NCBI GenBank assembly: GCA_902826615.1
Contig: CADEFN010000002.1
Span: 1 to 64,000, forward strand
Length of the DNA: 64,000 nucleotides
DNA from: an uncultured Gemmatimonadota bacterium
GTDB lineage: Bacteria; Gemmatimonadota; Gemmatimonadetes; Gemmatimonadales; Gemmatimonadaceae
Direction of reading: 5' to 3'
A program made the position numbers and the translations under genes. This document shows positions 5,513-12,126 of the stretch, piece by piece. A model generated the notes under the pieces. That model saw only the letters and a list, made by a program, of their open reading frames with translations. It was not told the origin of the DNA and searched no databases. How positions within the stretch are numbered: the stretch's first letter is position 1; each line of letters begins with the position of its first letter.

Positions 5513-5539
5513 GGGCTGTTCCCTCCTGTGCCCGAGAAT

Positions 5540-5559
5540 GGTATAGACTGGTCGGTATC
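5540..5559. promoter_or_regulatory. Candidate TetR operator
   Basis: The 20 bases from 5540 to 5559 form an imperfect inverted repeat (GGTATAGAC, TG, GTCGGTATC) with matching AGAC and GTC half-site cores. They lie about 30 bases upstream of the tetR-like start. This layout is usual for TetR autoregulation, but no second copy was found to support it. Confidence 0.45.
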
Positions 5560-5564
5560 ATGTC

Positions 5565-5684
5565 AAACGCAGTGATGGCCGCGCGGTCGGTGGGGAGGGT
5601 CGCGCGCCGAACGAGGACGCCCTCCGCGTCGACGGTGTGGAAGGCGATGGTGCGCTTGTGCAGGTCGAGTCCGGAGTACAGCAT
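5565..5684 (-). pseudogene. Truncated IS110 family transposase (N-terminus only)
   Basis: From the ATG at 5684, behind a GGAG ribosome binding site, the frame reads MLYSGLDLHKRTIAFHTVDA and continues for about 40 residues. This is the opening of the DEDD catalytic domain of IS110 transposases, with the first acidic residue in GLDLHKR. After the segment DRAAITAF the similarity stops and the frame runs into the tetR promoter region. The rest of the domain and the C-terminal Tnp20 part are missing. The insertion sequence is therefore a dead relic truncated at its 3' side. Confidence 0.75.
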
Positions 5685-5870: not shown

Positions 5871-6064
5871 ACCGTGAAGATGGGAAATTCCTCACGCGCC
5901 CCAAACCCACGCGGTCGAAGAGCGGCTCGTCTGACCTCCCCCTACAACCCCTCAACGACGCTTTCCACCGCCGGAGCCGCGTGGCGCGGCCCCCTCAGCA
6001 ACCGTATGTTCTCGCGTTTCGGCAGAGTTCGCCATCGGAGACACCCTATTATGGAAGTGCGTCC

Positions 6065-9000
6065 GTGATTGAGGTCTTGGGCTACGAAATCACAGAGACA
6101 CTCGGCGACGGCCGAGTCACCGCAGTCTACCGCGCCAGGGGAGAGACTGGTGACGTGGTGCTCAAGTGCCTGGTCGAACCCTACCCGACCGCACAACAAA
6201 TCGAGGCGTACCGCTCCGAATTCGCGATCCTTTCGCGTCTCACCTCACCGGGCGTCGTTCGCGCGCGGGAACTGCGCGAGGCCGGCAACGGGCTCGTGCT
6301 GGTCATGGAGTCTGTCCCGGGACCGACGCTCCGCGAGTCGATCAAACGCGGCCCCATGCCGGTCAAGAAATTTCTCGACTTCGCGCGACATATCGTTGCG
6401 ACGATTGGCGAGGTACACGCGGCCGGGGTGATTCATAAAGACATCAACCCTGACAACATCCTCTACGATCCGAGCACGGGGACGGTCCGGCTGATCGATT
6501 TCGACATCGCCACCGAGCTCCCGCTTGAACACATCGAACTCGCCGAGGTGTCGCAGCTCGAAGGCAGCCTGCCGTATGTGTCGCCCGAGCAGACCGGCCG
6601 CGTCAACCGCCTCCTCGACTCCCGAACGGACCTCTACTCGCTCGGCGCAACGTTCTACGAGGCCCTGACAGGCAAGCCGCCGTTTGAGTCGGATCATCCG
6701 ATGGGCATCCTGCATGGTCATCTGGCACGGCATCCGCGCCCGCTGACCGAGCTGGTGCCGATGCCGCCGGTGCTCTCGGCCATCGTGCTCAAGCTGCTCG
6801 CGAAAGACGCGAGCGAACGGTACCAGAGCTGCGCCGGATTGCTGCATGACCTGGGCGAATGCGACCGTCAGCTGCGTGACACCTACACGGTCGCGGACTT
6901 CCCGCTCGCGCGGCACGATCAGTCCGCCCGTTTCGAATTGCCGTCGCGGCTCTACGGTCGCGACGAGGAGCTGCGTGTCCTGCTTGGGGGCTTCGAGCGC
7001 GTCTGCACCGGTCAGACCGGGGTGCTGATGGTCGAGGGATACTCGGGGATCGGCAAGTCATCACTTGTGAACGCGGTGCACCGCCCACTGGTGCGGGAGC
7101 GAGGTCGCTTTATCCAGGGGAAGTTCGATCTCTATCGTCGCGACAAACCACTCAGCGCCTTCATCGAAGCGTTTCGTGCGCTCGTGGTGCAAATGCTGGT
7201 CGAGGGAGACACGGATCGCTGGAAGCGCGAGATCGAACTCGCACTCGGCGGCAACATCGGGGTCATCGCACAGGAGATTCCCGAGCTCGCACACATCGTC
7301 GGTACCGTCGCGCCACCACCTGAGGTGGGCGCGATGGAAGCACGCAACCGGTTGCACCTCGCCTTTCAGCGGTTTGTCGCGACCGTCGCGCGCCGGCAGT
7401 CGCCGCTGGTGATTTTCATTGACGACCTGCAATGGGCCGATCAGGCATCGCTGCTCCTGATGCAAGCGATTCTGACCAACCCGGAAAGCAGCTACCTGTA
7501 CTTCCTTGGCTGTTACCGCGGTAATGAAGTGGGCGCGGACCACCCGCTCCTCGCCACGATGGAGTCGATCGCCCACGTGCATCCGGTGGAGCGTGTCTCG
7601 CTGCCTCCGCTCACGCGTGAGCATCTGCAGGCGCTGGTGAGCGACGCGTTCGGCGCACGCAAGGAAGAAGCGGCCGAGCTGGCCGGCGTCCTGCTCGAGA
7701 AGACCGCGGGCAATCCATTTTTCGCCGGCGAGTTTCTCCGCGCGCTCAACCGCACGAAACTGTTTGTCCACGACGCGGAGCGCGGCGAGTGGGTGTGGGA
7801 CGCTGCTCGCATCCGGGAGCAGGGGCCGACGGAAAACGTTTCCGAACTGATGAGTGCCCGCCTTGGCGGACTCCCCGCATGGACCCAGGAGGCATTGGGT
7901 GTAGCCGCCGGGCTGGGCAACCAATGCGAGGAGTCGACGCTCGCGGCAGTCCTCGCTACTGACGCAAACGATGTCCAGCGACGTCTCGCGCCCGCTATCG
8001 AGGAAGGAGTGCTGCATCGCGCACGCGCGAGTGCGGGACGTGCACCGCGATACCGCTTTGCCCACGACCGCGTCCAACAAGCGGCGTACGCCTTGATTCC
8101 CGAAGCAGAGCGGCCCGCCCTGCACCTCAAGGTCGCCCGGTTCCTGCTCAGCCAATTCGAGGGCGAGGCGCGCGACGCACGACTGTTCGACATCGTCGAC
8201 CACTTCAATGCGGCGCGCGCAGAACTCACGTCGACCGCCGATCGGACCCAGCTGGCCCGGCTGAATCTGGAAGCCGGGCAACGCGCGACGGCCTCGGCAG
8301 CCTTCGCGCCCGCCTTGCGTTATCTCACCACGGGGTGCGAGGCGTCGGGCGAGGACCGCTGGAACGATGAACCAGACCTGGCACGTGCCCTGTGGCTCGA
8401 CCGGGGTGAATCGGAGTTCCTCAACGGCAACCACGAGGCTTCGGCCCGTTACCTCTCGGAGTTCATCGAGAAGGCACGGACTCCGGTCGAGGCGATGAAG
8501 GCGTATGCGATCCGCCTGGCATCGTACAACGCGCGGGGACAATTCGTCGACGCCATCGGCATCGGACTTGAAGCGCTGGGGTTGCTCGGGATCGAGCTGC
8601 CGAGTGACCCCGCCGAGATCGGTCAGATGACGGGGGCCGAACTCGGGCGGGTGAAGGAGCTGCTCGCGCACCGGTCGATCGAAAGCCTGATCGACCTGCC
8701 GCCCATGCAGGACCCCAAACTGATCGAAGCTATCCGGATTCTGGTCACCCTGACGTCGACCGCATACATCGGCCACCCGCAGATGTATCCGCTGATTGTC
8801 GCGAAGCAGGTGAACCTCTCGATCGAACATGGCAACGCACCGCAGTCGGCCGTGTCGTATTCGTCCTATGCCGTGCTGAACTCACCCGGTGGGCTGGGTG
8901 ATCTGGACACGAGTTACCGCTTTGGCGAACTCGCGCTGGCGATGCTCGATCGCGAGGGCAAATCCGACAACGTCACGAACATCAACTTCGTGTTCGGCAC

Positions 9001-11548
9001 CTTCGTGGGTCACTGGCGCAACCACCTCGCGTCCAGTCTTCCGTACCTGGACACCGCGTGTGTGGCGTCGCTCGAAATGGGCGACTTCGAGTACGTGAAG
9101 TACTCCGCGACCTTCGAGGCATTTTACTCGGTGCTCCTGTGGCGCGACCTCGCGGCGGTGCGCGACCACTGTGATCGCCGTCGGCTGATGCTGCAGAAGG
9201 TACGAATGGAGGGAGCCTCCGGCGCCTTCATGCTGGCGCGACAGCTCGCCTTCACCTTGTCCGGCGCCAGTGATCCGGAGCGACTGGCCGGAGCAGACTT
9301 CGATGAGGAGTCGGCTCACGCGACCTGGCTGCAGCATAACGACTTCCTCTCGCTCTCCTGCCTGGCGACGACCCGGCTGCTCGTGGCGAGCCTGTACCGC
9401 CGGTCAGACGCCATTGCACTGGTCGACGCGGCGCAGCCCTTCCTGGTGGCCAATACCGGGATGTTCCTCCTCGCGGAATTTCACCTTGCGGCCGCACTGG
9501 CGTTTACCGATGCGGCCAGGGGGGCAACGCCGGAGGTCGCCGCGTCACACGTCGCGCGCGCCAGAGAGAGCCTGGCACTGCTGGACGTGTGGGCGGAAAA
9601 GAGCCCGGTGAACTTCCGGCATCGAGTCCTGCTGGTCCGCGCGGAGATCGCCGCACTGGGGCACGATCCTGCCACGGCGGGCGTCGCCGAAGTGATTCGG
9701 CTGTACGAAGCCGCCGCACTGGCCGCGCGCGAAGGGGGATTCCTCCTCCACGAAGGCATCGCGTTCGAGCGCGCTGGCGACTTCTGCGAACAGGTAGGGC
9801 TGTCGCGGTTCAGCGGGACCTTTCTCGACGATGCGATTTACGCGTTTGAGCGTCTCTCGGCGCAGCCGAAGGCGAACCTCTTGCGCCGCCGACGTGGCGT
9901 CGGTCGACACGAGGCGCACACCGAACGCGGCACACGAAGACGGAGCACACAGGCGACGATTCGCGGCGTCGACTCCGACAGCCTGCGGCGCGCCGGGCAC
10001 GCGATCTCGGAAGCCATTCGTATGGATGTGCTGCTCGCCGAGCTGATGAAAATTCTTATCGAAACGGCGGGCGCCGACCGCGGCGCGCTGATTCGTGTGA
10101 CACCCACCGGTCTTCGCGTGGCCGCGACACGCGACGCCGAGACCGACGAAGTGCAGCGTTCGGATATCGATCTCAAGGATGCAGAGTGGGTGCCGGCGAG
10201 TGTGATCCGCTATGCGCTACGCACCATGGAGCCTGTGGTGCTAAGTGACTCACCGACCGAGGGTCCCTTTCGCGATGATCCCGCGATTCGGACCGGCGGC
10301 GCCCGTTCGGTGCTGTGCATTCCCATTGTGTACCGTGGCAAGGTTGAAAGCCTGCTCTATCTGCGCAACGGACTGGCCTCCGGCGTGTTTACGCCGGATC
10401 GCATCGACGGGATCTCGCTGCTCACGGGTCAGATCGCTGTCTCGCTCAAGAACGCCGAGTTGTATGAACAACTCGAGGAACGCGTGGAAGAACGCACACA
10501 GCAGCTCGAAGTGCGTAACCAGCTCATTCGACGTGCGTTCGGGCGATACCTGAGCGACGATGTCGCATCAGCCCTGCTCGAGGCTCCAGAAGGCCTCACA
10601 CTTGGCGGGGAGCGTCGCGATGTCACCATCCTGATGGCGGACTTGCGCGGATTCACGCCGCTGACGGACCGACTCCCGCCCGAAAGCATCGTCAGTATCG
10701 TGAACACGTATCTCGGTGAGATGACCGACGTGATCTTCCGGCACGAGGGGACGATCAACGAGTTCATCGGCGATGCCATTCTCGCCATTTTTGGCGCGCC
10801 GCAACGGCAGGCCAATCATGCCGAGCGTGGTGTGGCGTGCGCCGTGGAAATGCAGATGGCGATGGATCATGTCAACGCCCGCAACCGCAAGCTCGGCCTG
10901 CCGCCTGTGGAGATGGGCGTGAGCGTGCATTCGGGCGAGGTGGTCGTGGGGAACGTGGGTTCCGAGAAACGCGCCAAGTATGGTGTGGTGGGCCGCACGG
11001 TGAACATCGCGGCACGCATCGAATCGCATTCGGTTGGCGGCCAGGTCCTCGTCTCCGAGCGGACGTTGTCGCAAGTGACCTCGCCGGTCACGACGGTGCG
11101 CCAGTTCGAGATCCAGCCCAAGGGCATTGGAGAGCCACTGAAAGTGTTCGAGGTCGCCGGCATTGTTGGCGCGAACGCACTGGTCGTACCTGAGCGCGCC
11201 GCCATCGTTGCGCCCCTCGAAACACCACTCGAGATCGGCGTCGAGGTGATCCACGGCAAGTCCACCGGGAAAGGCTTCCGGCCGGCACAGCTGACGGCGC
11301 TTTCGAGTTCCTCAGCCTCGGTCCAGACCCCTGACCGGCTCCGGGTGTTCGACAATCTCCGCGTTCGCCTGCCCGCAGTCAGCGGCGACTTGACGGATGT
11401 GTTCGCCAAGGTGATCTCTGAGGAGCGTGGGGGAGCGTTTTTCGTTCGCTTCACGTCACTGCCCCCCGAAGCGCAGGAATGGATCGACGGTATTCTGCAC
11501 ACCGCCGGTTCGCCTACCATCCTGTCGCATCAACCACCCACTCCCTGA
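6065..11548 (+). CDS. Hybrid Ser/Thr kinase, AAA-type ATPase, GAF and class III nucleotide cyclase
   Basis: I use the GTG at 6065 (GGAAG seven bases upstream), because relatives of this trifunctional kinase family begin with the GY.I.. strand seen here as LGYEITETLG; a GTG at 5981 would add 28 residues. The 1,827 residues contain, in order: a protein kinase domain (about 1-280, catalytic HKDINPDNIL, LIDFDIA, SPEQTGRVNR); a predicted ATPase with Walker A GYSGIGKSSL near 326 and Walker B VIFIDDLQWAD near 450; a long TPR-like helical region; a GAF domain near 1320-1470; a coiled linker; a class III cyclase domain near 1515-1700 (MADLRGFT and GDAILAIFG aspartates, GRTVNIAARIES); and a PilZ-like end. 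It heads a same-strand gene run. The cyclase replaces the histidine kinase that usually ends this family. Confidence 0.92.
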   Translation: MIEVLGYEITETLGDGRVTAVYRARGETGDVVLKCLVEPYPTAQQIEAYRSEFAILSRLTSPGVVRARELREAGNGLVLVMESVPGPTLRESIKRGPMPVKKFLDFARHIVATIGEVHAAGVIHKDINPDNILYDPSTGTVRLIDFDIATELPLEHIELAEVSQLEGSLPYVSPEQTGRVNRLLDSRTDLYSLGATFYEALTGKPPFESDHPMGILHGHLARHPRPLTELVPMPPVLSAIVLKLLAKDASERYQSCAGLLHDLGECDRQLRDTYTVADFPLARHDQSARFELPSRLYGRDEELRVLLGGFERVCTGQTGVLMVEGYSGIGKSSLVNAVHRPLVRERGRFIQGKFDLYRRDKPLSAFIEAFRALVVQMLVEGDTDRWKREIELALGGNIGVIAQEIPELAHIVGTVAPPPEVGAMEARNRLHLAFQRFVATVARRQSPLVIFIDDLQWADQASLLLMQAILTNPESSYLYFLGCYRGNEVGADHPLLATMESIAHVHPVERVSLPPLTREHLQALVSDAFGARKEEAAELAGVLLEKTAGNPFFAGEFLRALNRTKLFVHDAERGEWVWDAARIREQGPTENVSELMSARLGGLPAWTQEALGVAAGLGNQCEESTLAAVLATDANDVQRRLAPAIEEGVLHRARASAGRAPRYRFAHDRVQQAAYALIPEAERPALHLKVARFLLSQFEGEARDARLFDIVDHFNAARAELTSTADRTQLARLNLEAGQRATASAAFAPALRYLTTGCEASGEDRWNDEPDLARALWLDRGESEFLNGNHEASARYLSEFIEKARTPVEAMKAYAIRLASYNARGQFVDAIGIGLEALGLLGIELPSDPAEIGQMTGAELGRVKELLAHRSIESLIDLPPMQDPKLIEAIRILVTLTSTAYIGHPQMYPLIVAKQVNLSIEHGNAPQSAVSYSSYAVLNSPGGLGDLDTSYRFGELALAMLDREGKSDNVTNINFVFGTFVGHWRNHLASSLPYLDTACVASLEMGDFEYVKYSATFEAFYSVLLWRDLAAVRDHCDRRRLMLQKVRMEGASGAFMLARQLAFTLSGASDPERLAGADFDEESAHATWLQHNDFLSLSCLATTRLLVASLYRRSDAIALVDAAQPFLVANTGMFLLAEFHLAAALAFTDAARGATPEVAASHVARARESLALLDVWAEKSPVNFRHRVLLVRAEIAALGHDPATAGVAEVIRLYEAAALAAREGGFLLHEGIAFERAGDFCEQVGLSRFSGTFLDDAIYAFERLSAQPKANLLRRRRGVGRHEAHTERGTRRRSTQATIRGVDSDSLRRAGHAISEAIRMDVLLAELMKILIETAGADRGALIRVTPTGLRVAATRDAETDEVQRSDIDLKDAEWVPASVIRYALRTMEPVVLSDSPTEGPFRDDPAIRTGGARSVLCIPIVYRGKVESLLYLRNGLASGVFTPDRIDGISLLTGQIAVSLKNAELYEQLEERVEERTQQLEVRNQLIRRAFGRYLSDDVASALLEAPEGLTLGGERRDVTILMADLRGFTPLTDRLPPESIVSIVNTYLGEMTDVIFRHEGTINEFIGDAILAIFGAPQRQANHAERGVACAVEMQMAMDHVNARNRKLGLPPVEMGVSVHSGEVVVGNVGSEKRAKYGVVGRTVNIAARIESHSVGGQVLVSERTLSQVTSPVTTVRQFEIQPKGIGEPLKVFEVAGIVGANALVVPERAAIVAPLETPLEIGVEVIHGKSTGKGFRPAQLTALSSSSASVQTPDRLRVFDNLRVRLPAVSGDLTDVFAKVISEERGGAFFVRFTSLPPEAQEWIDGILHTAGSPTILSHQPPTP

Positions 11549-11556
11549 GGCCCCGC

Positions 11557-12126
11557 ATGGATCCACTCGCCACTGCCAAGGCACTGTATGCAGCATTCAA
11601 CGCGCACAACATCCCGGGCATTCTTGCCTTGTTGGAGAACAAGGTTGTGTGGGAAGCGTTCGGACCCGATTTCGCGCTGGCGATCGGCACTTTCACCGGC
11701 AAGAGCGGCGTCACCGATTTCTTTGGCAAGCTGGTAGGTCCGACCGGCCAGCAGGTCGACACGATCTTCATGCCGCAGAACTTCTACGTCGGCGGCGGCA
11801 CGGTTCACGTGACCGGATTCGAGGCCGGCAAGCTCACGAGGTTCGTGGCCAATGGTTCCGACGCCGGCAAGCAGTTCTTCAACCACTTCGACCACACCAT
11901 CTGGTTCGGTCCGAGCGGGAAGATCAGCCGTTTCCGCGCCAACTATCAGCTGGCGTTGTCCGGTCCGAACTGGGTGCAGTGGCCCCCCATGAAAGGCAAG
12001 AAGGCGAAAGCCGGGACAAAGCCGACTGGGGGAAGCAAATCGAAGGCGGCTCCGAAGTCAAAGACCGCGAAGCCGTCGAAGGTCGCGAAAACGGCCAAAC
12101 GCGCGGCATCGACAAAGCGGCGCTGA
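11557..12126 (+). CDS. NTF2/SnoaL-fold protein with histone H1-like basic tail
   Basis: The 189-residue product starts eight bases after the giant signalling gene. Residues 1-140 resemble a SnoaL-like or NTF2 fold (MDPLATAKALYAAFNAHNI, then FFGKLVG, then FRANYQLAL), a family used both as small-molecule enzymes and as binding modules. Residues from about 145 to the end are almost only Lys, Ala, Ser, Thr and Pro, like a eukaryotic histone H1 tail, with repeats such as SKAAPKSKTAKPSK. A similar tail occurs on the product of the gene at 13541. The tail suggests binding to nucleic acid or another polyanion. No signal peptide is present, so a cytoplasmic location is likely. Confidence 0.8.
   Translation: MDPLATAKALYAAFNAHNIPGILALLENKVVWEAFGPDFALAIGTFTGKSGVTDFFGKLVGPTGQQVDTIFMPQNFYVGGGTVHVTGFEAGKLTRFVANGSDAGKQFFNHFDHTIWFGPSGKISRFRANYQLALSGPNWVQWPPMKGKKAKAGTKPTGGSKSKAAPKSKTAKPSKVAKTAKRAASTKRR

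Follow-up and report, generated by a model that had tools for sequence, protein, structure and literature searches.

We found that a single gene in the window, the 64,000-nucleotide stretch of Gemmatimonadota DNA analyzed here, joins in one frame a Ser/Thr kinase, a STAND-type ATPase, a middle region, a GAF domain, a class III cyclase and a tail with a predicted PilZ fold, in this order (Table 1). The protein is probably a cytoplasmic signal-integrating guanylate cyclase, in which an HstK-like scaffold drives a Cya2-type cyclase carrying a PilZ-like tail that does not bind c-di-GMP. The tail belongs to the cyclase and not to the N-terminal scaffold. The observation made in an earlier note on this DNA was confirmed overall, and the interpretation given there was partly supported.

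Table 1. Features of the kinase-cyclase gene. Pfam residue ranges count from GTG 5981; other residue numbers refer to the 1,827-residue protein P0001 (start 6065). Row counts are from the 84-row family alignment.
Feature	Position in window	Strand	Basis or remark
Whole gene, GTG start	6065-11548	+	1827 codons and a stop codon; upstream, the frame is open as far as GTG 5981
Ser/Thr protein kinase domain	6083-6829	+	Pfam PF00069, residues 35-283, 2.4e-35
STAND-type P-loop ATPase (AAA_16)	6947-7498	+	Pfam PF13191, residues 323-506, 6.7e-37
Middle region	8012-9934	+	Conserved among full-length relatives; blastp, e.g. 5e-75 in L038
GAF domain	10025-10447	+	Pfam PF01590, residues 1349-1489, 9e-12
Linker: signalling helix and putative cyclase transducer element	10448-10600	+	Model helices 2-18 and 24-32
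Class III nucleotide cyclase catalytic domain, Cya2 type	10616-11119	+	Pfam PF00211, residues 1546-1713, 1.8e-25
First metal Asp, D1526	10640-10642	+	D in 84/84 rows
Base-selecting Glu, E1566 (INEFIGD)	10760-10762	+	E in 83/84 rows
Second metal Asp, D1570	10772-10774	+	D in 84/84 rows
Lys1638-Tyr-Gly1640 (KYGVVG): conserved Lys and second base-selecting position	10976-10984	+	K in 83/84 rows, G in 68/84 rows
Transition-state Asn1647 and Arg1651	11003-11017	+	N and R each in 84/84 rows
Predicted PilZ-fold barrel and C-terminal helix	11210-11506	+	AlphaFold2, Foldseek, VIA-align; without c-di-GMP motifs

Gene, reading frame and neighbourhood

The reading frame 5981-11548 on the forward strand is uninterrupted and would encode 1,855 amino acids if begun at GTG 5981. 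The GTG at 6065 is the likelier start, since the N-terminal residues of the resulting protein (1,827 amino acids, P0001) line up with the start of the homologue in Symploca (L106). A chance or spurious frame is very unlikely in view of the whole-length homology to other proteins and the GC content by codon position of gene 6065-11548 (0.70/0.46/0.77). The base composition gave no sign of foreign origin (gene GC 0.642 vs 0.647 for the window).

Pfam searches of the frame translated from GTG 5981 found Pkinase, AAA_16, GAF and Guanylate_cyc, each exceeding its own cut-off, and thus bore out the reading of the earlier note that kinase, ATPase, GAF and cyclase are combined in one chain. Neither HisKA nor HATPase_c was among the 18 Pfam families listed for the protein.

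Among the nine neighbouring frames, Pfam identified S41 peptidase, DUF418, TetR, SnoaL_2, VTT, amidohydrolase and DAO families, two frames being empty, and no phosphodiesterase or cNMP-binding protein was present as a partner gene. The SnoaL-like gene (window 11557-12126, forward strand; PF12680, 26.9 bits vs a cut-off of 27) has an inner ATG 8 bases past the stop codon of the kinase-cyclase gene, and co-transcription of the two is possible. Directly upstream of the kinase-cyclase gene, on the reverse strand, lies a fragment (window 5514-5684, beginning MLYSGLDLHKRT) that has no Pfam match at 0.01 and that we take to resemble the N-terminus of an IS110-type transposase. The fragment shows a 66% match within a 454-residue frame at G000:C3:338938.

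The cyclase domain and its likely product

The cyclase domain scored 90.1 bits with PF00211, vs a curated cut-off of 21.9. When the cyclase was searched against PDB sequences, the nearest entries were Cya2 (2w01, E 5e-61) and 6fht. In a Foldseek search with the model of cyclase and tail, 2w01 was the nearest natural solved structure, at 49% identity, and the first row was 6fht, an engineered chimera built on Cya2. Cya2 (Sll0646 of Synechocystis), the most closely studied of the bacterial guanylate cyclases, shares with this protein the Glu-Gly pair, the Lys before Tyr-Gly, the Asn and the Arg. The two proteins differ in that Cya2 is driven by CHASE2 and a membrane region, according to the available text of PMC5995499, and in that the Ala of this protein is a Tyr in Cya2. 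The 84-row family alignment used for the residue counts includes one exact repeat (L072, whose frame is that of L033) as well as near copies; the cyclase-ended relatives L025, L026, L028 and L030 were excluded, having another cyclase.

The earlier note was correct in reading Glu at the base-selecting site and Gly at the second one. The note took this Gly to leave the product uncertain. However, the base-selecting pair of Cya2 is Glu-Gly in the accessible parts of PMC4215837 and PMC4886424, so that the second-site Gly speaks for a guanylate cyclase and not against it. Cya2 is described as having a higher specific activity for making cGMP (PMC4284465, in the part available). Judged from its sequence, the product of the cyclase is likely to be cGMP.

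A cyclase that yields cAMP, or cAMP and cGMP together, instead of mainly cGMP is unlikely. What points that way, and counts against the cGMP reading, is Ala1650, which occupies the position of a Cya2 Tyr that enhances guanylyl activity in the available portion of PMC4215837. This position holds Tyr in 10 and Ala in 24 of the 84 family rows, and a Tyr near the guanine site is therefore not family-defining among the family examined. The Glu and the Lys, on the other hand, are each kept in 83 of the 84 rows, and it takes a Glu-to-Lys change, which by itself suffices, to turn Cya2 into an adenylate cyclase, as given in the text available for PMC5995499. In addition, the genome search found two class III cyclases, and the other PF00211 match (L001), a Lys/Thr type without the tail, already resembles the adenylate cyclase.

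The scaffold and its relatives

The kinase keeps Lys34, Glu52, His-Lys-Asp126, Asn131 and Asp145. Its DFG motif reads DFD, which counts against our preferred explanation. With its residues intact except for DFD, the kinase may phosphorylate its own chain or a partner. The ATPase carries a Walker A motif (GYSGIGKS) and a Walker B motif (LVIFIDD). For the middle region, Pfam returned TPR_14 alone, at 0.35, and we presume this region to be a TPR-like helical repeat. The linker after the GAF domain appears to correspond to a cyclase transducer element (CTE), a name taken from the accessible text of PMC5995499.

The DFD motif, together with the loss of the catalytic Asp from the kinase of the Planctomycetota homologue (L038) and the absence of the full gene form from the 59 other genomes of the nearest-relative search, could indicate that the fusion has decayed or is inactive, with a pseudokinase and an idling cyclase. 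We consider this improbable: the frame is intact over its 1,827 codons, the kinase retains the Lys, the Glu, the Asn and both the catalytic and the metal Asp, neither of the Walker motifs and none of the catalytic residues of the cyclase is missing, and several relatives also vary at the DFG Gly.

The scaffold aligns across about 1,460-1,490 residues with relatives that end in a histidine kinase. An N-terminal Ser/Thr kinase followed by GAF is common to this protein and to the HstK-type dual kinases (cbSTKIII) of cyanobacteria. The HstK-type kinases end in a histidine kinase, whereas this protein is without HisKA/HATPase and its output is a cyclase. In a search of 395 genomes of the phylum, 14 matched at E ≤ 1e-60. 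Ten of the fetched relatives carry the scaffold beyond GAF (the contig-cut L031 was excluded); five of them end in a histidine kinase, four in a cyclase and one in a sigma-54 activator domain. A histidine kinase is thus the ending of just 5 of these 10 relatives, and not the normal ending of the family as the earlier note had it. Moreover, a survey of 2007 already lists a protein with a cyclase ending: in its accessible part (PMC2176072), Tery_2857 of Trichodesmium (cbSTKII) comprises kinase, GAF and CYCc and clusters with the HstK-type kinases. Tery_2857 shares the kinase-GAF-cyclase chain with this protein; the two were likened by description, and neither the ATPase nor the tail is listed, and no nucleotide preference given, in the same part of PMC2176072.

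The relative with the sigma-54 activator ending (L024 832-6027, reverse strand; 8.1e-73) carries the kinase-ATPase-GAF scaffold and represents a third kind of output. Three others (L025, L026 and L028) have the kinase-ATPase-GAF-cyclase order with a Ser at the base-selecting site (DSYNGDE) and a Gly at the second position, without the PilZ-like tail.

A Planctomycetota MAG (L038) and Symploca SIO1C2 (L106) each encode the complete combination in a single frame: kinase, ATPase, middle region, GAF, Cya2-type cyclase and tail. The combination was also found in L047 and L037, whose frames are cut near contig ends, giving 4 of the 80 loci examined (the best 80 of 516). A search for the same architecture, which the earlier note had proposed, therefore shows that it recurs in one planctomycete and one cyanobacterium. 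The Planctomycetota frame (L038/L118) is 40% identical over residues 6-1808. Across 386 genomes of the phylum of Symploca, with 56 Cya2-type matches, one frame was longer than 1,500 residues. Among plasmids, 277 records match and 26 cover at least 80% of the query; an annotated cyclase-domain protein on a Rufibacter tibetensis plasmid matches residues 31-1667 of the query. The best NCBIfam match was TIGR03903, a TOMM kinase/cyclase fusion that likewise unites a kinase, an ATPase and a cyclase, but the score of 204.2 bits is far under the equivalog cut-off of 705.75.

In a tree built from 83 rows of cyclase and tail (L072 dropped), the fused label needs three changes, at least two of them by well-supported branches, which indicates that the fusion was probably gained or lost more than once. 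The fusion is best read as a rare recombination of known modules, of which the kinase-GAF-cyclase chain was already in the 2007 table.

Several other loci hold parts of the combination. The cyanobacterial genome that contains L047 has a second frame (L119 1459-6807, forward strand) in which the scaffold is followed by a Lys/Thr-type cyclase and no tail. In two loci of the window's own family (L034 1108-2553, forward strand, and L035 1477-3051, reverse strand), a response-regulator receiver domain, recognized by eye, precedes the cyclase and tail. Two Nannocystis genomes each have a stand-alone Cya2-type cyclase with the tail and, a few kilobases downstream of it, a kinase-ATPase frame (L092 11718-15632 and L101 10851-15629).

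The tail is predicted to be a PilZ barrel without c-di-GMP motifs

With the tail of this protein, Pfam returned no family at E ≤ 10, PilZ included, and the tail alone had no match among PDB sequences at E ≤ 10. A match of the tail family profile to TFIID in the PDB (0.51) was attributed to chance. Since sequence and profile searches against the PDB were empty, a comparison of folds was needed.

The AlphaFold2 model of window 11138-11545 is a six-strand barrel plus helix (strands 25-39, 48-55, 59-63, 73-79, 85-95 and 100-107; helix 110-123). The pLDDT is at least 90 for 81 of the 136 residues and low at the two ends of the model, which we count against our preferred explanation. With this model, the 11 best PDB rows of Foldseek were all PilZ (Alg44, a cellulose synthase and a P. 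aeruginosa protein), with 4rt1 at 7e-05; the TM-score by query length was just 0.47-0.55 in the 12 best rows, a further point against that explanation. The 30 best rows of VIA-align (Z 12.6 to 8.9) were nearly all PilZ entries, the rmsd being large (5-7) in some of these alignments and F1-ATPase barrels reaching a Z of 6-7. PF07238 was found by 23 of 81 homologous tails (best 9.9e-08), and each family other than PilZ was matched by at most 2 of the 81. On the predicted structure, the protein ends in a degenerate PilZ barrel of ~100 residues. The PilZ-like end that the earlier note had read from the sequence, to be refuted by a model lacking the barrel, is upheld by the six strands and helix of the model, by Foldseek and by the homologues; a Pfam match of this sequence itself is absent, which counts against it.

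The earlier note had also proposed the last 60 residues as a candidate for c-di-GMP binding. Across the 84 family rows, the RxxxR motif occurs in 1 and the [DN]xSxxG motif in 0; the tail of L141 has an NVSACG string, but away from the motif site. The sole PF07238 match of the genome (L117), a single positive control, carries both motifs (RRSYR and DCSERG). The tail profile gave this canonical PilZ an E of 3.5, the same as shuffled decoys, so that the tails and the canonical PilZ are far apart by sequence. Residues kept in the family rows are Lys1732 (83/84), Lys1782 (84/84) and Thr1797 (83/84). The genome carries 20 GGDEF domains and 3 cNMP-binding domains and may thus use both kinds of messenger. 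That the tail is a functional receptor for c-di-GMP and modulates the cyclase, which would bring the signalling by c-di-GMP and by cGMP together in a single protein, is nevertheless very unlikely: the PilZ fold, the presence of PilZ domains with bound c-di-GMP in the top rows of Foldseek, the GGDEF domains and a link from cGMP to c-di-GMP via other domains in Xanthomonas (PMC3770947, in the part available) speak for it, but the near-complete absence of both motifs from the family, vs their presence in L117, the only canonical PilZ that the genome has, speaks against it.

The tail accompanies Cya2-type cyclases

The tail profile was scored on the best cyclase frame of each of 126 loci. The tail was found in all of the 80 best loci, which is partly a result of selection because the query used for the ranking itself contained the tail; the first specificity residue was unreadable in 4 of them and Asp in 1. 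The fairer test is provided by the Glu-type cyclases retrieved with the Cya2 catalytic domain alone, of which 12 of 12 had the tail (the best 12 of 56 matches). By contrast, it was found in none of 21 Lys-type cyclases (19 from the nearest-relative genome search, L001 and L119), and it was absent from the three cyclases whose base-selecting residue is Ser and from a divergent Glu/Thr cyclase (L030). The tail therefore goes with the Cya2-type cyclase and is not specific to this protein.

In two close orthologues of Cya2 (L137 and L138), whose frames share 96-97% identity with the catalytic fragment in 2w01, the cyclase is followed by a C-terminal tail domain as it is here. The tail profile gave 97 bits in both (E near 4e-32), vs 93-95 bits in this protein, and their tails have weak Pfam PilZ matches (0.0025 and 0.0051), under the gathering score.

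In the accessible text of PMC5995499 (2018), truncated Cya2 constructs had low activity and the native 118-residue C-terminal extension substantially raised it; the extension influenced the linker/CTE region and was described as structurally uncharacterized. That these activation data come from chimeras of a different protein counts against our preferred explanation. Since the same tail type follows Cya2-type cyclases, our tail data give this extension a predicted fold. The word PilZ occurs zero times in PMC5995499, and no description of the Cya2 tail as PilZ was present in the titles and abstract starts searched, subscription papers aside.

Proposed mechanism and implications

In the mechanism that we favour, the inputs to the scaffold (a GAF ligand, the state of the ATPase and the activity of the kinase) would alter the coiled linker and transducer element. 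The linker/transducer element would set the dimer of the Cya2-type cyclase, which would convert GTP to cGMP. By analogy with the related systems, kinase, ATPase and GAF may all control the cyclase. The barrel would not sense c-di-GMP; its most likely place is against the cyclase or the transducer element, where it would stabilise the active state and raise activity, and in this protein the tail may thus act as an activator of the cyclase.

A more far-reaching proposal, which we regard as tentative and rather unlikely, is that the PilZ-like domain is an allosteric module of the whole Cya2-type family that has lost c-di-GMP binding and reads another ligand, such as its own cGMP or GTP, or the state of the dimer, via the conserved residues. 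Such a module would add a regulatory input beyond control by kinase, ATPase and GAF.

The fold for the Cya2 extension, together with a reason against expecting c-di-GMP binding, is a more useful result than the fusion itself. Bacterial cGMP signalling is still poorly mapped. Since the extension is a mark of the Glu-type bacterial cyclases in this analysis, it could aid in recognizing likely cGMP makers in genomes.
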